A stretch of DNA of 21,544 bases from a virus: the IMG/VR virus record IMGVR_UViG_3300001796_000007, positions 1-21,544 of that record; one strand, 5' to 3'. Of the stretch, positions 123 to 21,544 are shown piece after piece. The notes under the pieces were generated by a model. It was not told the origin of the DNA. It was given only the letters and a program-made list of their open reading frames with translations, and did not search any database. Each line of letters opens with the position of its first letter. The first letter of the stretch is position 1. The position numbers and the translations under genes were made by a program.

Positions 123-198
123 CTGGGCGTAGCTCAGGTGGTAGAACACCGCGCTTGGGACGCGGATGTCGTCGGTACGAGCCCTGCCGCCCAGACCA
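123..198 (+). tRNA. tRNA-Pro (anticodon TGG)
   Basis: This is a full cloverleaf with encoded CCA. CTGGGCG at 123-129 pairs perfectly with CGCCCAG at 188-194, followed by A and CCA (196-198). The anticodon stem CCGCG/CGCGG (149-153/161-165) encloses the loop CTTGGGA with anticodon TGG at 156-158. Oddities are a C-A mismatch in the D stem (GCTC/GAAC), one mismatch in the T stem, and TACGAGC instead of TTCGANN in the T loop (T55 replaced by A). These suggest a diverged phage tRNA that may be weakly functional. It most likely supplies proline decoding during phage growth. Confidence 0.82.
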
Positions 199-222: not shown

Positions 223-250
223 TCCGGCTTCGTCTAGCGGCGGTGCCTAA
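223..250 (+). pseudogene. 5' fragment of a Gln-type tRNA (acceptor and D-arm start)
   Basis: TCCGGCT (223-229), then TC and GTCTAGCGG, looks like the first half of a Gln/Glu-type tRNA (acceptor 5' strand, positions 8-9, D arm). No matching 3' acceptor strand occurs at normal distance, because an intact tRNA-Gln begins at 257. The exact complement AGCCGGA lies at 848-854, inside a tRNA 3' half that lacks its own 5' half. The right edge of this fragment is uncertain, since tRNA-like sequence fades after about 244. It is read as half of a tRNA gene separated from its other half by about 560 bases. Confidence 0.5.
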
Positions 251-256
251 GAGTTT

Positions 257-332
257 TCTGGGGTCGCCTAATTGGTAGGGCAACTGACTTTGAATCAGGA
301 GGTTGGGGGTTCGAGCCCCTCCCCCAGAACCA
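257..332 (+). tRNA. tRNA-Gln (anticodon TTG)
   Basis: The cloverleaf is complete. Acceptor TCTGGGG (257-263) pairs with CCCCAGA (322-328), followed by A and encoded CCA (330-332). D stem is GCCT/GGGC. The anticodon loop CTTTGAA (288-294) carries TTG at 290-292, and the T arm has TTCGAGC at 310-316 with five pairs. One mismatch closes the anticodon stem (283/299). The 3' part overlaps the open frame of the following HNH protein, and the tRNA begins immediately after the 5' fragment of another tRNA. Confidence 0.9.
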
Positions 333-820
333 AAACATGCAAGAAATGCGGCTTGCTCAAGCCGCTCGCCGACTATGCTATCGATAGAAAGGCGAAAGAC
401 GGTCGTCAGGGCTGGTGCCGGCCATGCAAGGTTATATCAGTGGGTGCCGCACCTAGCGCCAAGACCCGTTGCCGGTCTCGAAGAACTAAAGAACAAGGGC
501 GCGCGCGTTATCACCGAGAGAAGTTGCGCTTCAATATCGGGCGGCGCATTCGGGCTTCGATCGCGGGGGCAAAAACAGCGAGTTGGCCTTCGGTTCTCGG
601 GTATGGCGTTGCCGAGTTGCAAGCTCATCTTGAAGGCCTATTCAAACCAGGGATGTCGTGGGAAAATTACGGCATTCACTGGCACATAGACCATCGAAGG
701 CCGGTTGCTAGTTTTGGGGCGATGGCGATCGGCGACGAGATGTTCTCGGAGTGCTGGGCGCTGTCGAACCTGCAACCACTTGAAGCGGTAGAAAATCTTC
801 GAAAGGGTTGCCGCCTTTGA
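272..820 (+). CDS. HNH endonuclease, free-standing, 5' end fused into tRNA-Gln
   Basis: This is a predicted HNH (beta-beta-alpha metal) nuclease of the type common as mobile genes in phages; it would nick or cut double-stranded DNA. Of 182 residues in the maximal frame, a zinc-ribbon pair (CKKC near 23-26, CRPC near 49-52) is followed by the catalytic HWHIDH (136-141), then NLQPL and ENLRKG near the C terminus. Both zinc and catalytic motifs are intact. The start is unclear. The frame opens with TTG at 272 in the D loop of tRNA-Gln, right after an in-frame TAA, and no ATG or GTG lies before the first cysteine. Related proteins normally begin a few residues before CxxC, which would fall at the tRNA 3' end, so the native start may have been lost. 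An AGGAGG at 297-302 has no usable in-frame start after it. The stop TGA (818-820) lies in the anticodon loop of the next tRNA half. Confidence 0.72.
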   Translation: MVGQLTLNQEVGGSSPSPRTKTCKKCGLLKPLADYAIDRKAKDGRQGWCRPCKVISVGAAPSAKTRCRSRRTKEQGRARYHREKLRFNIGRRIRASIAGAKTASWPSVLGYGVAELQAHLEGLFKPGMSWENYGIHWHIDHRRPVASFGAMAIGDEMFSECWALSNLQPLEAVENLRKGCRL

Positions 821-858
821 AGCGGCAGACCTTGGTTCGAATCCAGGAGCCGGAGCCA
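809..858 (+). tRNA. 3' half of a tRNA-Gln (anticodon TTG), separated from its 5' half
   Basis: Anticodon arm GCCGC/GCGGC (810-814/822-826) has loop CTTTGAA and anticodon TTG at 817-819. A four-base variable region is followed by a perfect T arm (831-835/843-847, loop TTCGAAT), acceptor strand AGCCGGA (848-854), G73 and encoded CCA (856-858). G73 fits Gln or Glu identity. The bases just upstream are HNH coding sequence and give neither acceptor nor D arm. The matching acceptor TCCGGCT is at 223-229. Either this is the remnant of an interrupted tRNA gene, or its product is restored at RNA level; nothing here proves the latter. Confidence 0.55.
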
Positions 859-1135: not shown

Positions 1136-1209
1136 GCGGAAGTAGCTCAGTGGTAGAGCAGCGGCCACCTAGTCGCGTGTCGTTGGTTCAATCCCAACCT
1201 TCCGCTCCA
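1136..1209 (+). tRNA. tRNA-Gly-like gene with 6-nt anticodon loop
   Basis: Acceptor GCGGAAG (1136-1142) pairs perfectly with CTTCCGC (1199-1205), followed by T73 and CCA (1207-1209). D arm GCTC/GAGC and T arm GTTGG/CCAAC (loop TTCAATC) are perfect. GCGG at the 5' end and U73 are typical of bacterial tRNA-Gly. The anticodon stem GCGGC/GTCGC (1161-1165/1172-1176, one G-U) closes a loop of only six bases, CACCTA, where seven are expected. If the invariant T33 is missing, the anticodon is ACC (Gly). If base 38 is missing, it would read CCT (Arg). It may be inactive, unusual in decoding, or carry a one-base sequencing deletion. Confidence 0.72.
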
Positions 1210-1715: not shown

Positions 1716-2165
1716 ATGACAGTGAAGAAACGCGGTCGGCCGGCGTTCAAGCCGACGCCGGCCATTCGCCGAAAGGTCGAGCAGTGCGTATTCGGCGGAA
1801 TGCCGAAGACCGAAATCGCCGCCGGGCTCGGCATCGACGAAAACACGCTGCGGAAGCATTTCGAGCACGAGCTCCACATCGGATTGAGCCGCCGCCGAGT
1901 CGAGGTTCTGGACTTGCTTTTCAGCGCAGCCCGCAAAGGCAACGTGACGGCGCAGAAGAAGCTCGAGGAGATGGGCGCGCGCGCCGCCGCAGAAGCCAAC
2001 TTTCACGATCGGCCTGAAAATGAGCCTCGCCAGGCAGACGCCGTCTCGAAGGCGCCGAAGCTCGGGAAGAAGGAATCGCAGCAGATCGAAGCAGAAAATG
2101 CCGGCCTCGGCACGGATTGGGGTGACGATCTGCACATTGGCGCCGGCGGCCGTCTACCGAACTGA
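1716..2165 (+). CDS. terS: Terminase small subunit
   Basis: This protein recognises the packaging site on concatemeric phage DNA and stimulates the large subunit. Its 149 residues are a usual length for the family. The N terminus KKRGRPAFKPTPAIRRKVEQ leads into a helix-turn-helix (about residues 18-50), with GMPKTEIAAGLGIDENTLRKHF as its core. This is the pattern of small terminases in many proteobacterial siphophages. It is followed by a helical region (RRRVEVLDLLFSAARKGNVTAQKKLEEMGA) expected to oligomerise, then a polar, probably disordered tail that may contact the large subunit. Its stop shares a base with the next start (TGATG at 2163), typical of a terS-terL pair. Identification rests on motif and synteny. 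Confidence 0.85.
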   Translation: MTVKKRGRPAFKPTPAIRRKVEQCVFGGMPKTEIAAGLGIDENTLRKHFEHELHIGLSRRRVEVLDLLFSAARKGNVTAQKKLEEMGARAAAEANFHDRPENEPRQADAVSKAPKLGKKESQQIEAENAGLGTDWGDDLHIGAGGRLPN

Positions 2166-3883
2166 TGGCGGACTGGTCAACGGCTTGTCCGGATTGGGAG
2201 CGCCGCCTCCTCGCCGGCCAGTCGCTAGTCCCAAATCTCCCGCTTTTCACCGAGGAGGCAGATCGCGCGGAGCGCGTCTTCAAGAGGCTTCGCATCCCGG
2301 ATCTTATCGGGACGCCGACGATGGGCGAGGTAGCTGGCCCTTGGCTGTTTCCGATCGTCAGGGCGATTTTCGGATCCTACGACGTCGACACTAATCGGCG
2401 AATGATCCAGGAATTCTTCTGGCTCATCGCGAAGAAGAACACGAAGACCAGTTCCGGCGCCGCGATCATGGTCGAGGCGCTGATCCTCAATCGCCGGCCA
2501 GAAGGTGAGTTCAATCTCGTCAGCGCGACGAAGGAGATAGCTGACATTTCGTTCCGCCAGGCATCTGGAACGATCCGGACTGATCCGGAGCTCGACAAGA
2601 CTTTCCAGGTCCAGAAGCACATTCGAACGATCACGCATCGGAGAACCGGAGCGACGCTAAAGGTCAAAGCTGCCGACACCGACGTGATCACCGGCGGCAA
2701 GGGCTCGACGCTGATTGACGAATTGCATGTCCTTGGATCGAAGAAGGACGCAGCAGACATCCTCGTCGAGATCCGCGGCGCGCTGGCGGCGCGTCCTGAC
2801 GGCTTCCTGATCATCATCACCACGCAGTCGAAGGCGCCGCCGGAAGGCGTCTTCAAGAGCGAGCTCGGCAAGGCCCGCCTCGTGCGCGACGGTAAGCTGT
2901 CGCTGCCGCTTCTTCCGATCCTTTACGAACTGCCGGGGCGGCTCCAAGACGGCGACGGCTGGAAGGATCGCCGCTACTGGTCGGCTGTTAATCCGAATCT
3001 GGGGCGCTCGGTCGACGAGGCGTTTCTCGAACGGTCGCTGCTGACGGCGGAGATCGAGGGCAAAGAAGAGCTGGCGCTCTTCGCCTCGCAACATTTCAAT
3101 GTCGAGATCGGCTTGAAAATGAGATCGGATCGATGGGCCGGCACCGATTATTGGGAGAAGGCTGTCGAACCAGCGGTGACGCTCAAGCGAATCCTCGAAT
3201 GCTGCGAAGTCATCACGATTGGCATCGATGGCGGTGGTCTCGATGATCTGCTGAGCCTCTATGTCATCGGGCGCGAGGCTACACCGAATAAGGACGTCAG
3301 GTTCCGCCGCTGGTTCGGATGGGGACACTCCTGGGCATTTAGCGATCCCGTAAACAAGGGCGGCGTATTGGAGCGACGTAAATCGGAAGTCGCGAAGCTG
3401 CGCGATTTCGAGGCGGTTGGCGAACTGACAATCTTCACGCGCATGGGCGACGACATCGAGGAGATGGTCGCCATCATCAAGACGGTCTTCGATTCCGGTA
3501 AGCTGGCAATGATTGGGCTCGATCCCGTTGGCGTCGGGGCCGTCGTGGACGCGATCGCCGATGCCGAGATCCGGAGCGACGGCGACGAAGAGATGATCGT
3601 CGCGGTTTCGCAGGGCTACAAGCTGATGGGCGCCATCAAGACGGCGGAACGCAAGCTCGCCGACGGAACGCTCGTGCCCGCGGAGCAAGCCATCATGGCG
3701 TGGGCGGTCGGCAATGCCCGCAACGAGCAAAAAGGCAACGCCATGATGATCACGAAGCAAGCGAGCGGAACGGCCAAGATCGATCCGCTCATGGCGATGT
3801 TTGACGCGATCGCGCTTATGAGCACAAATCCAGAAGCTTCGGACGCCATTCCAGACGATTATGAACTGGCGGTGTGGGCGTGA
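2165..3883 (+). CDS. terL: Terminase large subunit (ATPase-nuclease)
   Basis: This is the DNA-packaging motor and headful or cos nuclease that docks on the portal. The protein has 572 residues, full length for lambda/HK97-type large terminases. The N-terminal ATPase shows a deviant Walker A AKKNTKTS (about 89-96), Walker B STLIDEL (D185-E186) and a coupling motif IITTQS (about 217-222). The C-terminal RNase H-fold nuclease shows the first acidic motif GIDGGGLDD (about 353-361), a second at IGLDPVG (about 449) and a final acidic stretch DPLMAMFDAIAL near 540-550. The ATG start overlaps the terS stop by one base, and the stop overlaps the portal GTG. All key acidic residues appear present, so it should be active. 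Confidence 0.95.
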   Translation: MADWSTACPDWERRLLAGQSLVPNLPLFTEEADRAERVFKRLRIPDLIGTPTMGEVAGPWLFPIVRAIFGSYDVDTNRRMIQEFFWLIAKKNTKTSSGAAIMVEALILNRRPEGEFNLVSATKEIADISFRQASGTIRTDPELDKTFQVQKHIRTITHRRTGATLKVKAADTDVITGGKGSTLIDELHVLGSKKDAADILVEIRGALAARPDGFLIIITTQSKAPPEGVFKSELGKARLVRDGKLSLPLLPILYELPGRLQDGDGWKDRRYWSAVNPNLGRSVDEAFLERSLLTAEIEGKEELALFASQHFNVEIGLKMRSDRWAGTDYWEKAVEPAVTLKRILECCEVITIGIDGGGLDDLLSLYVIGREATPNKDVRFRRWFGWGHSWAFSDPVNKGGVLERRKSEVAKLRDFEAVGELTIFTRMGDDIEEMVAIIKTVFDSGKLAMIGLDPVGVGAVVDAIADAEIRSDGDEEMIVAVSQGYKLMGAIKTAERKLADGTLVPAEQAIMAWAVGNARNEQKGNAMMITKQASGTAKIDPLMAMFDAIALMSTNPEASDAIPDDYELAVWA

Positions 3884-18200: not shown

Positions 18201-18599
18201 GCGCGCTACATCGGTCTGCCGTGGCTCCCTGGCGGGCGCACGCGCGACGGCGTCGATTGTTGGGGGCTAATGACCCTCGTCTACGCCGAGGTCGCCGGTG
18301 TCCCGCTTGACCCCCTCAACGGGCTTTACGTCACAGCCGAAGAGCGCGAGGACATCGCGCGTATCGTCGATGGGCAGTGCGCGCATGGGCCGTGGGTCAA
18401 GGTCGAAGCGGGCGACGAGCGCGAAATGGATATCCTGCTGTTCCGCTGTTTCGGGCTGCAAAGCCATGTCGGCGTCGTCTGCGGCCGCGGGCTGATGCTG
18501 CACGCGACGTCCGGCAAGGACAGTTCAATCGAGCGCTATGCGGACGGACGATGGCTGCCGAGGCTCATGAGCGCATGGCGTCACGAGGAGCTGGCGTGA
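18189..18599 (+). CDS. NlpC/P60 cysteine peptidase, tail tip (gpK-like)
   Basis: This peptidoglycan endopeptidase domain is found in tail tips (lambda gpK C-terminal domain, GTA gp14-type); it cuts stem peptides during DNA entry. It has 136 residues. The nucleophile Cys24 lies in GVDCWGL, the catalytic His93 in SHVGVV, and the third polar residue is probably His105 in MLHA. DILLFRCFG is the usual strand before the His. All catalytic positions are present. No clear ribosome site precedes ATG 18189; translation may depend on read-through coupling from the membrane gene. Its stop overlaps the hub gene as GTGA. Activity in assembly, rather than only entry, is possible. Confidence 0.9.
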   Translation: MHWSARYIGLPWLPGGRTRDGVDCWGLMTLVYAEVAGVPLDPLNGLYVTAEEREDIARIVDGQCAHGPWVKVEAGDEREMDILLFRCFGLQSHVGVVCGRGLMLHATSGKDSSIERYADGRWLPRLMSAWRHEELA

Positions 18600-21094
18600 G
18601 CGCGCCCAGCGGCGCGCGCATCATCGCGCAGCCCTATCTCGATGGCGGCCGGCGTCTCGACGCGGTGGCGCCGGCGGGATCGACGATATTTGAGATTGTC
18701 GCTATCGCCATCCCCGGCGTGCCTGAGCCGCTGTTGCCGCATGTGCGCGTCACCATCGGCGAGACGGTCATCCCGCGCGAAATGTGGATGCGAGTCCGGC
18801 CGAAGCCGACGACGATCGTCATCGTGCGGGTTGCGCCTGGCAATCGTGGCGCGCTGCGGGCAGCGCTCTCCATCGCGGTTGGCGTCGCGGCGCTCGCGGT
18901 CGGGCAGGTCTGGGCGGCGCCGCTCGCCGGCGCGCTCGGCTTTGGCGGCTCGGCGCTCGCCACGGGCATCGCCCAAGGCGTGCTCAGCGGCACGGTGCTG
19001 CTCGCCGGCACGTTCCTGATCAACTCGCTTGTGCCGCTGCGCCAGGATCAGGCGCAGGGCGCGGGCATCGCGCAGAGTCCGACATACGCTATCCAGGGCT
19101 TTCGCAACGTCGCCAATCCCGACGGCGTCGTGCCCTGCGTGATGGGCAAGGTTCGCTTCGCACCGCCATATGCGGCGCTGCCCTATACGGAAGTCGCCAA
19201 CGGCGAGACCTATATCCGCGCGCTGTTCCTCGTCGGCTACGGCCCGGTCGCCATTCGCGACATCAAACTCGGCGACACGCCGATCGAGAATTTCAAGGAA
19301 GTCGAGGTCGAGGTCCGCGAGGGCTACCCCGACGACGAGCCGGTCACGCTCTACCCATCGCAGGTGCTCGAAGAACGCCTGTCGATCGACCTCAATCAGG
19401 CCTATGTCGGCACCTACGGACCGCACACGCGGTTCACGGCGTCCGACGCCGACGAAGTCTCGCTCGATATTGCCTTCGCCAACGGCCTCTTTTGGATGCG
19501 CACGGTCGTCGCTGGGTCGACATCGACGACATTTCCGCTGCCGCTGACAGTGACGGTCCGCATCCGCATGCGGCTGAACGGCGTCGGGTCGTGGACGACG
19601 GTTACGGATTGGTCGATCTCGGCGTTCACGCAAAAGCCCTATAGCGCTTCCTATCGCTGGCGGCTCCCGGCGCGCGGCCGCTACGAAATTGAGGTGACGC
19701 GCCTCACCGCCGACCTCGACGAACTGAACGCGTGGCAGCAAAATGACCAGTTCGTTTCGGTCTCGCTTTGGTCGGCGATCCGCAGCTATCGCCCGGAATA
19801 TCCGCTGAACTTCAACCACCCGCTGGCCGTGATCGCGGTGCGGGCGCGCGGCTCCAAGCAACTGAACGGTGTCATCGACAATCTGAATTTGGAAGCCTCG
19901 CGCGTCTGCCTCGATTGGGACGGCGCAGATTGGGTCGAACAGGAGACGCAAAACCCTGCGGCGCTGCTGCGCTACGCGATGCAGGGACCGATGGTCGCCT
20001 ATCCGCTTGAGGATGACGAAATTGATCTTGCGGGTCTCGAAGACTTCCACGACTTCTGCGCGGACAAGAGCCTCACCTATAACCGCGTTCACGATTTCGA
20101 GCAGTCCGTGTTCGACGCATGGAGCGACATCGCGGCGGCCGGTAGAGCCTCCCCGCGAGACGACGGCGAGCGCTGGGGCGTCGTTATCGATCGCACGCAG
20201 ACGATCACCATGCAGCACATTACCGCGCGCAACTCCTGGGGCTTCTCCGGCGCGCGCGATTACGTGCGCCTCCCCGACGCTTTCCGTGTCAAGTTCTATG
20301 ACGAGACGAACAGCTACAAAATGGCAGAGCGCGTCGTGCCGTGGCCGGGGTTCCTTGGCGAGCCGGTCATCACGGAAAGCATCGAGCTCCCCGGCGTAAC
20401 CGCCCCGGATCAAGTCTGGATCGAAGCGCGACGCCGGCAATACGAGCTGATCCACAGGCGCGACGTTTATTATGCGACGATGGACTTCGAGGGTGCCTGC
20501 GCGCGCCGCGGCGATCTCGTTTTGCACAGCCATGATGTGCTGAAGCGCACAAACATTTCGGCGCGGGTCAAATCGGTGTCGGGAACAGCCGTCACGCTCG
20601 ACGACTTCGTGACGATGGAGGACGGCAAGACCTACGCTCTCCGCTTCCGCAAACTGCCAGATTCGGAAGGCGACGATCTCAGCATTTTGCGCAGTGTGAC
20701 GACGGTTGTGGGCGAGCACGACACGGTTTTCATCACCGGCTCCGGTGTGCTGCCCAACGTCGGCGATCTGGCAATGTTCGGCGAGTCCGACAGCGTCACC
20801 AAGGAAATGATCGTTCGCGAAGTTGAGGGCGCCGAGGATCTGGCGCGCCGCTTCACGCTGGTCGACCACGCGCCGCAGATCGAAACGCTCGCCGACGCGG
20901 AAGTGCCGCCGGATTGGAACGGGCGCTTTGGCGAGATCGCATGGCCGTATCTGCAATGGGGATCTGGCGACGTTCTGTCGTGGGGTGACGAGCTGCTTTC
21001 GTGGGGCACGGCGCTCGACACGCCCGGTCTCAAATGGGGGCCTAACAACCGACTGACATGGGGCGGCGATGATCTGCTCTGGGGGAACGCATGA
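18596..21094 (+). CDS. Tail hub / host specificity protein, TipJ (gpJ-like)
   Basis: This central tail-tip protein binds the host receptor and closes the tube. It has 832 residues from GTG 18596, which overlaps the peptidase stop as GTGA; the longer open frame from 18377 would run inside the peptidase gene. Residues 1-80 form a beta-grasp-like start (VRVTIGETVIPREMWMRVRPKPTTIVIVRVA), then about 87-146 is strongly hydrophobic and Gly/Ala-rich, as in TipJ proteins and lambda gpI. The hub region from about 160 includes GFRNVANPDGVVPCVMGKVRFAPPYAALPYTE and LFLVGYGPVAIRDIKLGDTPI, typical of gpJ. Fibronectin-like and hub domains follow. The last 50 residues carry six LxWG motifs ending LLWGNA, an unusual Trp-rich tail probably contacting the next fibre. 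Confidence 0.9.
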   Translation: MSAPSGARIIAQPYLDGGRRLDAVAPAGSTIFEIVAIAIPGVPEPLLPHVRVTIGETVIPREMWMRVRPKPTTIVIVRVAPGNRGALRAALSIAVGVAALAVGQVWAAPLAGALGFGGSALATGIAQGVLSGTVLLAGTFLINSLVPLRQDQAQGAGIAQSPTYAIQGFRNVANPDGVVPCVMGKVRFAPPYAALPYTEVANGETYIRALFLVGYGPVAIRDIKLGDTPIENFKEVEVEVREGYPDDEPVTLYPSQVLEERLSIDLNQAYVGTYGPHTRFTASDADEVSLDIAFANGLFWMRTVVAGSTSTTFPLPLTVTVRIRMRLNGVGSWTTVTDWSISAFTQKPYSASYRWRLPARGRYEIEVTRLTADLDELNAWQQNDQFVSVSLWSAIRSYRPEYPLNFNHPLAVIAVRARGSKQLNGVIDNLNLEASRVCLDWDGADWVEQETQNPAALLRYAMQGPMVAYPLEDDEIDLAGLEDFHDFCADKSLTYNRVHDFEQSVFDAWSDIAAAGRASPRDDGERWGVVIDRTQTITMQHITARNSWGFSGARDYVRLPDAFRVKFYDETNSYKMAERVVPWPGFLGEPVITESIELPGVTAPDQVWIEARRRQYELIHRRDVYYATMDFEGACARRGDLVLHSHDVLKRTNISARVKSVSGTAVTLDDFVTMEDGKTYALRFRKLPDSEGDDLSILRSVTTVVGEHDTVFITGSGVLPNVGDLAMFGESDSVTKEMIVREVEGAEDLARRFTLVDHAPQIETLADAEVPPDWNGRFGEIAWPYLQWGSGDVLSWGDELLSWGTALDTPGLKWGPNNRLTWGGDDLLWGNA

Positions 21095-21544
21095 CAACCG
21101 ATCTGAAAGCGCTAACGGCGGATACTTCAATCCCAGATACCGCTCTCATCTTCGGGGCTGATGATCCGACCAGCGCTCAGCCGAGCGTCTATCCGATCGA
21201 CGACGTGAAAGCGAAAGTGCTCGAGGCCCCAGCGGAATTGGAGGCATCAACAACGGCCGCTGCCTCGCTGAATGTTCCGCACGGCGTCGCGCCAACATCT
21301 CCGGTCGATGGCGACATTTGGACAACGACAGCAGGCATCTACGCGCAGCTGAACGGCACGACCAGCCAAATTGCGATCGCGGCGAGCATGGCGTCGACCT
21401 ACGCGAAACAGATCGTCATCCAGGTTTTTACCTCGAACGGCACCTACGCCCCTACCGCAGGAATGAAGCTTGCCGAGGCGTTCGCGTTCGCGGGGGGGGG
21501 TGGCGGCGGGTCTGGCGCGCGGCGGGCGGCGGGCGCGATCGCAT
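21091..21544 (+). CDS. Tail fibre protein, glycine-rich domain, 3' end cut by window
   Basis: Starts with ATG 21091 (ATGA overlap with hub stop); 151 codons are visible and the frame is open at the window end. The N terminus MTTDLKALTADTSIP probably attaches to the hub. The phrase SLNVPHGVAPTSPVDGDIWTTTAGIYAQLNG is common in fibre and tail-tip proteins of many phages, and the stretch IQVFTSNGTYAPTAGMKLAE leads into AGGGGGGSGARRAAGA, the start of a glycine-rich 'YTPxAGM...GGGG' fibre domain that forms polyglycine helix bundles. It should determine host range. A G9 homopolymer lies in this domain. The C-terminal receptor-binding part and any chaperone are outside the window. Confidence 0.85.
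   Translation, partial: MTTDLKALTADTSIPDTALIFGADDPTSAQPSVYPIDDVKAKVLEAPAELEASTTAAASLNVPHGVAPTSPVDGDIWTTTAGIYAQLNGTTSQIAIAASMASTYAKQIVIQVFTSNGTYAPTAGMKLAEAFAFAGGGGGGSGARRAAGAIA
21492..21500 (+). repeat. G9 homopolymer in tail fibre frame
   Basis: Nine consecutive G encode part of the polyglycine stretch. As read, the frame stays open through the tract (GCG GGG GGG GGT) and the following residues SGARRAAG fit the family, so the length shown is the in-frame one. Gain or loss of one base would shift the frame. Confidence 0.8.

Follow-up and report, generated by a model that had tools for sequence, protein, structure and literature searches.

A tRNA-Gln(TTG) gene of a bacterial virus that stands in two parts around a second tRNA-Gln(TTG) gene and an endonuclease VII-like nuclease gene

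A tRNA gene for glutamine with the anticodon TTG (tRNA A) is present in two parts in a 21,544-base record of a bacterial virus, the whole of which is called the window below, and the gap between the two parts holds a divergent but complete tRNA-Gln of the same anticodon (tRNA B), together with an open reading frame (ORF) for an endonuclease VII-like HNH nuclease. Comparison with other viral sequences confirms, at the level of sequence, that positions 223-240 and 810-858 are two parts of one viral-type tRNA-Gln(TTG). As the two parts belong to the same tRNA class, as a tRNA-Gln(TTG) and a nuclease gene lie in the gap and as an intron is not recognised there, insertion with replacement is the simplest explanation: an insertion probably split tRNA A at a point past the D loop and ahead of the anticodon stem, and tRNA B and the nuclease gene either came with it or were added later. 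If it is true that such nucleases target tRNA genes for homing and supply a replacement, this would help to explain the fast turnover of phage tRNA clusters, as well as the broken and duplicate tRNAs found in them. If, on the other hand, the DNA was merely rearranged by chance, it still documents clearly the loss and replacement of a phage tRNA gene.

The features concerned are part of a small tRNA array upstream of the terminase genes, which comprises tRNA-Pro(TGG), tRNA B and a tRNA-Gly-like gene (Table 1). A second IMG/VR record, 3300025520_000006 (L002, 58,137 bases), is identical to positions 1-2200 of the window and extends 1.8 kb further upstream.

Table 1. Features of the tRNA array, the insert and the adjoining terminase genes in the window.
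Feature	Positions	Strand	Evidence
tRNA-Pro (TGG), first of the array	123-198	+	ARAGORN; Rfam, 43.8 bits; alignment
tRNA-Gln A, 5' part: acceptor strand TCCGGCT, TC, D-arm GTCTAGCGG	223-240	+	18/18 bases as at the start of the intact L024 tRNA-Gln(TTG)
Filler of 16 nt with no recognised counterpart, replacing the missing 7 nt of tRNA A	241-256	+	Sequence
Complete tRNA-Gln (TTG) B, CCA encoded	257-332	+	ARAGORN; Rfam, 62.8 bits
Endonuclease VII-like HNH nuclease ORF (conserved part 332-817)	272-820	+	phrog_1035, E 5.1e-17; AlphaFold2, pLDDT 91.1
tRNA-Gln A, 3' part: anticodon arm, variable loop, T arm, acceptor, G73, CCA	810-858	+	Covariance model; motif; L024, 27/32
tRNA-Gly-like gene	1136-1209	+	ARAGORN ('tRNA-???'); Rfam, 53.9 bits; covariance-model alignment
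Probable terminase small subunit	1716-2165	+	phrog_12540 (unknown function), 1.1e-24; phrog_309 (terminase small subunit), 0.0014
Terminase large subunit	2165-3883	+	Pfam TerL ATPase and nuclease; phrog_9, 3e-92

The 5' part of tRNA A (TCCGGCTTCGTCTAGCGG) is laid out as TCCGGCT (223-229), TC, GTCT and AGCGG, and beyond position 240 no tRNA sequence follows. The 3' part consists of an anticodon arm (stem GCCGC at 810-814, loop CTTTGAA at 815-821 with the anticodon TTG at 817-819, and GCGGC at 822-826), AGAC, the T arm at 831-847, the acceptor strand AGCCGGA at 848-854, G855 and CCA at 856-858. The two acceptor strands pair at 7/7 positions, as a preliminary description of this DNA had pointed out, and its warning that such a match may by itself be due to chance was well founded, the four occurrences of TCCGGCT in the window being at chance level (4.39 expected). 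Figures can now be given for its further argument that the tRNA-like context lowers the role of chance: the 18-mer 223-240 is found, with up to three mismatches, at one place in the window, which is its own (0.05 expected), and the tRNA-Gln class motif, with its 14 fixed bases, is expected 0.0003 times per window. Positions 795-858 are matched on their own, with 32.8 bits, by a covariance model of 27 tRNAs, which include three from the window but not the 3' part of tRNA A; the Rfam tRNA model gives the 3' part 19.4 bits, which is below its threshold. Another 5' partner for 810-858 was considered and rejected: TCCGGCT occurs on the + strand of the window solely at 223, and the nuclease sequence just before 810 provides no acceptor strand, 7/7 acceptor pairs being broken in the covariance-model alignment. 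Neither relatives in which the 5' part is without a tRNA counterpart nor another native 5' half for the 3' part were seen.

An uninterrupted tRNA of the same class is found elsewhere. One further IMG/VR contig (L024) contains the 18-mer 223-240, as the start of an intact 74-nt tRNA-Gln(TTG) at 1012-1085 that lies upstream of ORFs that we take for terminase genes by their place; the first 18 bases of this tRNA agree with the window at 18/18 positions and its last 32 bases at 27/32. Compared with L024, tRNA A is without seven bases, namely positions 20-26 (the last part of the D loop, the D stem's 3' strand and base 26), and the lengths add up to that of the intact tRNA (18 + 7 + 49 = 74). A looser class pattern leads to 21 loci, L024 and 20 more (16 different sequences when aligned), all of which have a tRNA-Gln(TTG) at that place according to ARAGORN. 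The exact pattern of the whole tRNA had no match in the viral contigs, a similar pattern had none in the genome contigs, and no near-identical uninterrupted relative of tRNA A was found in the data searched. The uninterrupted tRNA that had been suggested for a search among relatives is thus seen at the level of the class and not in a near-identical genome, for which reason the insertion is deduced from class-level relatives. No ORF of the endonuclease VII type was found at E 1e-3 in loci L003-L021, L024 and L036-L055. One of these loci, on a 14-kb viral contig (L047), has on its minus strand at 731-805 an ARAGORN tRNA with the anticodon CTA, printed as tRNA-Pyl, which is possibly an amber suppressor. 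Relatives of the window's terminase (20 loci, one being the window's own copy) have a tRNA, by ARAGORN, only in that copy, and therefore supply no empty site for the window array.

In place of the seven missing bases of tRNA A, the window has 16 nt of filler, tRNA B and the nuclease ORF, so that the earlier report of a complete tRNA-Gln with the same anticodon and a nuclease gene between the halves is correct. No 11- or 12-base word of the filler occurs in the other loci searched, own copies excluded. A near-identical source of tRNA B was not found among phages, the best match having 81.4% identity over 70 bases, nor in 289 genomes of one class, where the best was 88% over 49 bases. The Rfam intron families give no match at gathering score in the window and none up to E 10 in 200-1430; a group I or group II intron in tRNA A was rejected on the ground that no Rfam intron core lies between its parts, in agreement with the preliminary description. 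Because an intron match is absent, tRNA A is most likely dead and replaced in function by tRNA B, which most likely is its replacement and, judged by its complete sequence, can serve CAA codons; we infer that decoding was kept after the insertion. A functional split or spliced tRNA, in which the parts of tRNA A are joined as RNA, would fit the seven acceptor pairs, and the parts do fold with acceptor, anticodon and T stems when joined by eight N; however, the D stem has lost its 3' strand, there is no match to an intron family and a complete tRNA-Gln of the same anticodon stands between the parts, and we consider such joining highly improbable.

Phage attachment sites (attP) often start in the anticodon loop, and an integrase gene is present in the 58-kb record, so that the 3' part of tRNA A might be taken for an attachment site, that is, for a copy of the 3' end of a host tRNA. 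Of all readings weighed here, this one is nevertheless the least probable: the 5' part is also present and has the same orientation, the integrase gene lies ~29 kb away, and among 289 genomes of the class of G004 no high-identity match covers the 3' part, the comparison giving 15 with E <= 0.001 and a best match of 86% over 36 bases.

The HNH nuclease of the preliminary description can be specified further as endonuclease VII-like, since residues 19-181 of its product (P0001) match PHROG 1035, endonuclease VII. No Pfam family was found above the cut-off, and the PHROG and Pfam scans gave no GIY-YIG domain. The HNH residues D120, H121, N146 and N155 and the N-terminal zinc cysteines C3, C6, C29 and C32 are present, and the C-terminal NLQPL..xN..K motif of PHROG 1035 relatives is shared, with the Trp of LQPLW replaced by Glu. 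The AlphaFold2 model is confident; its best structural matches are weak, both for Foldseek (Hpy99I, E 0.83) and for VIA (GVE2 HNH, Z 4.6, rmsd 3.2 over 77), the rows returned being mostly HNH nucleases. An exact-peptide search for close relatives of the nuclease returned the window's own copy alone.

Both ends of the nuclease gene are shared with tRNA sequence. The frame is open, and its first in-frame ATG is found at 653; possible starts are TTG 272, TTG 290, TTG 353 and GTG 440, of which the first two lie inside tRNA B. TTG 290 is the anticodon of tRNA B and has AGGG nine bases upstream, and GTG 440 has AAGG eight bases upstream. At the site of the start codon the best-matching relative, L142, reads ATG AAA AAT TGT and the window reads ACC AAA ACA TGC; the ACC at 329-331, in the place of the lost start, is the 3' end of tRNA B, which directly abuts the nuclease. 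This fusion of tRNA B to the second nuclease codon, with loss of the ATG, suggests that the joint between them is itself a product of recombination. At the other end, the stop codon TGA (818-820) lies in the anticodon loop of tRNA A, the overlap with the 3' part amounting to 11 bases (810-820), and the last codons, TGC CGC CTT TGA, are at the same time the anticodon stem and loop of tRNA A. The C-terminus of the nuclease family is KGxR/K, and GCCGC fits the tRNA stem and the codons alike, so that this junction has the look of microhomology joining. The absence of an ATG and the change of W to E in LQPLW suggest decay of the nuclease, which may be weakly expressed from one of the TTG or GTG codons, or silent.

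Relatives of the nuclease were collected in two scans of 79 loci each, with two loci in common, each scan being taken from the best 80 matches of a longer list (at least 600 matches in the first). In a blastp search with the window nuclease (162 rows) the best matches were L142 (46%, 142 bits) and L056 (41%, 127 bits), followed by L144 (111 bits). Among the listed homolog loci ARAGORN found a tRNA in 1 of 79 in the first set and in 4 of 81 in the second, one of the four being the window's copy. ARAGORN misses some phage tRNAs, including both of L142, and the covariance model was therefore added. Over 170 listed homolog rows (79 + 91) it gave confident tRNAs in L056, L143, L142, L172, L176 and L033, and weak ones in L103 and L171. 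The model includes the tRNAs of the window, L056, L142 and L172, which thus match by construction, and these tRNAs were also found independently by Rfam or ARAGORN; the tRNA scans leave out eight bacterial or archaeal nuclease loci.

The majority of the listed homologs have flanks without a tRNA. A tRNA lies directly upstream of the nuclease in three of the 170 listed rows, which correspond to two sequences (L142, and L056, whose coordinates are also those of L143), and in addition in L176. The distances are short: the 3' end of a tRNA-Glu is 11 nt before the nuclease ATG in L142, a tRNA-Glu(TTC) is 29 nt before the nuclease in L056, where moreover a tRNA-Glu(CTC) overlaps its stop codon, and a tRNA-Ile is 17 nt before it in L176, with no tRNA in the 1.3 kb downstream. 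In L172 the nuclease comes first and the tRNA follows 47 nt later, and in L033 the 3' end of a tRNA seen by the covariance model alone is 513 nt from the nuclease start. tRNAs for one and the same amino acid flank the nuclease in the window (Gln) and in L056 (Glu). Four of the five different loci with a confident tRNA have the nuclease within 50 nt of it, for which random placement gives 5e-5; this value is overstated, as the cut-off of 50 nt was chosen after the fact, L172 is a sister of L176 and has its tRNA downstream, and the true odds are much weaker, because gene-dense phage DNA puts any neighbour of a tRNA close to it. In the nuclease trees, calculated with L176 not labelled as tRNA-abutting, L056 groups with L142 (98/93), and none of 200 bootstrap trees unites the window with these two; a tree in which the three are forced into one group is not rejected (AU p 0.541) and has a likelihood 2.03 higher, and 7 of 500 label shuffles are as low.

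We would also like to mention some peculiarities of these loci. In L056, which is part of a 370-kb viral contig, the nuclease stands within a run of four tRNA-Glu genes (2393-3217) with the anticodons TTC, CTC, CTC and TTC. L142 has another endonuclease VII-like gene (phrog_1035, 2.4e-29) at 1507-2010, ~310 nt upstream of the tRNA-Thr of that locus. Furthermore, the tail of the L142 nuclease (2983-3170) holds GTTTGGATAAAAGGT, which resembles the D/anticodon stem of its own tRNA-Glu at 14/15 bases (shuffle p 0.0165; a shared word of at least 10 in 0.4% of 500 shuffles, post hoc); as a post hoc lead, it is possibly a tRNA remnant in the same place as in the window.

Other relatives are found with packaging genes. 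Those of L025, L027, L030, L034 and L035 lie beside terminase genes without tRNAs; in L025 (in the order endonuclease VII, TerS, TerL), L027, L030, L033 and L035 the nuclease either immediately precedes the terminase genes or lies between them, and in L034 it is two genes upstream of the terminase. The window's own terminase is ~0.9 kb downstream of the nuclease, and the region upstream of the terminase is described as a hot spot of different homing-type nucleases, the HNH protein of HK97 being a packaging partner instead (PMC10448857). The nuclease could thus be an ordinary endonuclease VII/HNH gene of the packaging locus that illegitimate recombination joined with tRNA B and a broken tRNA A, in chance mosaicism without any tie to tRNAs, and the imprecise look of the junctions would agree with this. 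Such an origin deserves to be taken seriously but is somewhat unlikely, since the two best matches, L142 and L056, as well as L176, abut tRNAs instead, random joining would not predict the same anticodon in tRNA A and tRNA B, and a different HNH gene is already present in the record ahead of the array (L002 1419-1775). Quite unlikely, in our opinion, is an origin by duplication and loss without any insertion, in which tRNA B and the nuclease were flanked by two copies of tRNA A, of which the upstream one kept only its 5' part and the downstream one only its 3' part: two complementary losses ending at most seven bases apart would be needed where a single event suffices, even though in L056 the nuclease stands between tRNAs of the same amino acid, the downstream one complete, and SegB is stated to drive tandem amplification of tRNA segments (PMC13096335).

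According to the insertion reading, which we prefer, the ancestors of the nuclease would be free-standing homing endonucleases that, in the manner of SegB in T4-like phages, cut at or close to tRNA genes and so become established in phage tRNA clusters. A nuclease of this tRNA-settling lineage would have entered tRNA A, either with tRNA B or before it, and imprecise, microhomology-like joining would have removed seven bases of tRNA A, leaving it without a D stem and killing it. Decoding of CAA would then have been taken over by tRNA B, which may have arrived with the nuclease or have been selected afterwards, and today the nuclease would be weakly expressed from TTG or GTG, if it is not silent. 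By analogy, we infer a tRNA-region homing endonuclease that cuts and copies itself, and the position of some relatives right behind tRNA genes hints at a little-known route of selfish nucleases into viral tRNA clusters. Insertion into, and replacement of, a tRNA-Gln by a mobile unit had been proposed in the preliminary description. The insertion and the replacement find support, in that the halves are of one tRNA type, no intron is recognised and some relatives follow tRNAs; tRNA and nuclease may travel as one mobile unit, but the relatives' tRNAs are of other kinds (Glu, Ile), the ATG is lost at the tRNA junction, most relatives are tRNA-less and no uninterrupted close relative was found. An unlikely elaboration would be homing with rescue, in which an endonuclease VII-like lineage cuts the tRNA-Gln or tRNA-Glu genes of rivals and carries a divergent, cleavage-proof tRNA of the same specificity. 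The target would be the region of the D loop and the anticodon stem, and a single event would both eliminate the cut tRNA and make good its function, which would make the system nature's equivalent of a rescue gene drive; expression of the nuclease could then be set by tRNA processing, with maturation of tRNA B removing the upstream starts, including the anticodon TTG at 290-292.

Several known systems resemble the window arrangement in part. A phage ribonucleotide reductase gene is reportedly split by a homing endonuclease without an intron ('genes in pieces'); both cases have a phage gene divided by a nuclease gene in the absence of a recognised intron, but that protein gene is functional in pieces, whereas the tRNA gene of the window most likely is not. 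Group I introns are also said to occur in bacterial tRNA genes, with endonucleases of the anticodon region, and like these the window has nuclease-bearing DNA that interrupts a tRNA gene in the anticodon region, although without a group I match. Phage introns observed up to 2014 were reportedly all in protein-coding genes (PMC3984707). SegB of phages T4/T6 is reported to be a tRNA-region homing endonuclease that is found near tRNAs in many phages and drives the amplification of tRNA genes (PMC13096335), its target being intergenic between tRNAs (PMC2988022). The window shares with it a free-standing endonuclease gene among phage tRNA genes, and the nuclease gene is repeatedly found within or beside tRNA genes (in the window, L142, L056/L143 and L176), most of the 170 listed rows being tRNA-less. 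The differences are that SegB is a GIY-YIG enzyme and the window nuclease is of the endonuclease VII/HNH kind, that a tRNA gene is broken in the window, and that a tRNA of the same anticodon lies beside this predicted nuclease. The arrangement thus resembles that of a tRNA-region homing nuclease, and would work like one, with a different nuclease domain. As to the HNH proteins of PHROG 1035 on the terminase side, the profile family, the HNH residues and the C-terminal motif are the same, but unlike its relatives in L025, L030 and L035, which have no tRNA nearby, the window gene lies between tRNA parts and is without an ATG. The vicinity of phage tRNA genes and homing endonucleases is already known; the interrupted phage tRNA gene is what is new here, as far as the literature searched goes, a full-text search of listings and a few passages having returned no report of one.

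The remainder of the tRNA array is also unusual. The tRNA-Pro has a mutated T loop (TACGAGC) and one mismatch in its D stem, and the tRNA-Gly-like gene, which ARAGORN was unable to name, has an anticodon loop of 6 nt (CACCTA) and is probably defective; with this odd gene and the changed T loop of tRNA-Pro, the array seems to be decaying. Positions 1252-1335 give a weak tRNA-like match to our own covariance model (12.4 bits, E 0.01), which may be a further tRNA remnant or due to chance. The HNH gene in L002, just upstream of the window and of the array, is of another type (phrog_589, 2.9e-22). Finally, at 18377-21130 of the window an ORF of 849 aa on the minus strand lies opposite an ORF of 905 aa on the plus strand, which is probably an effect of codon composition.
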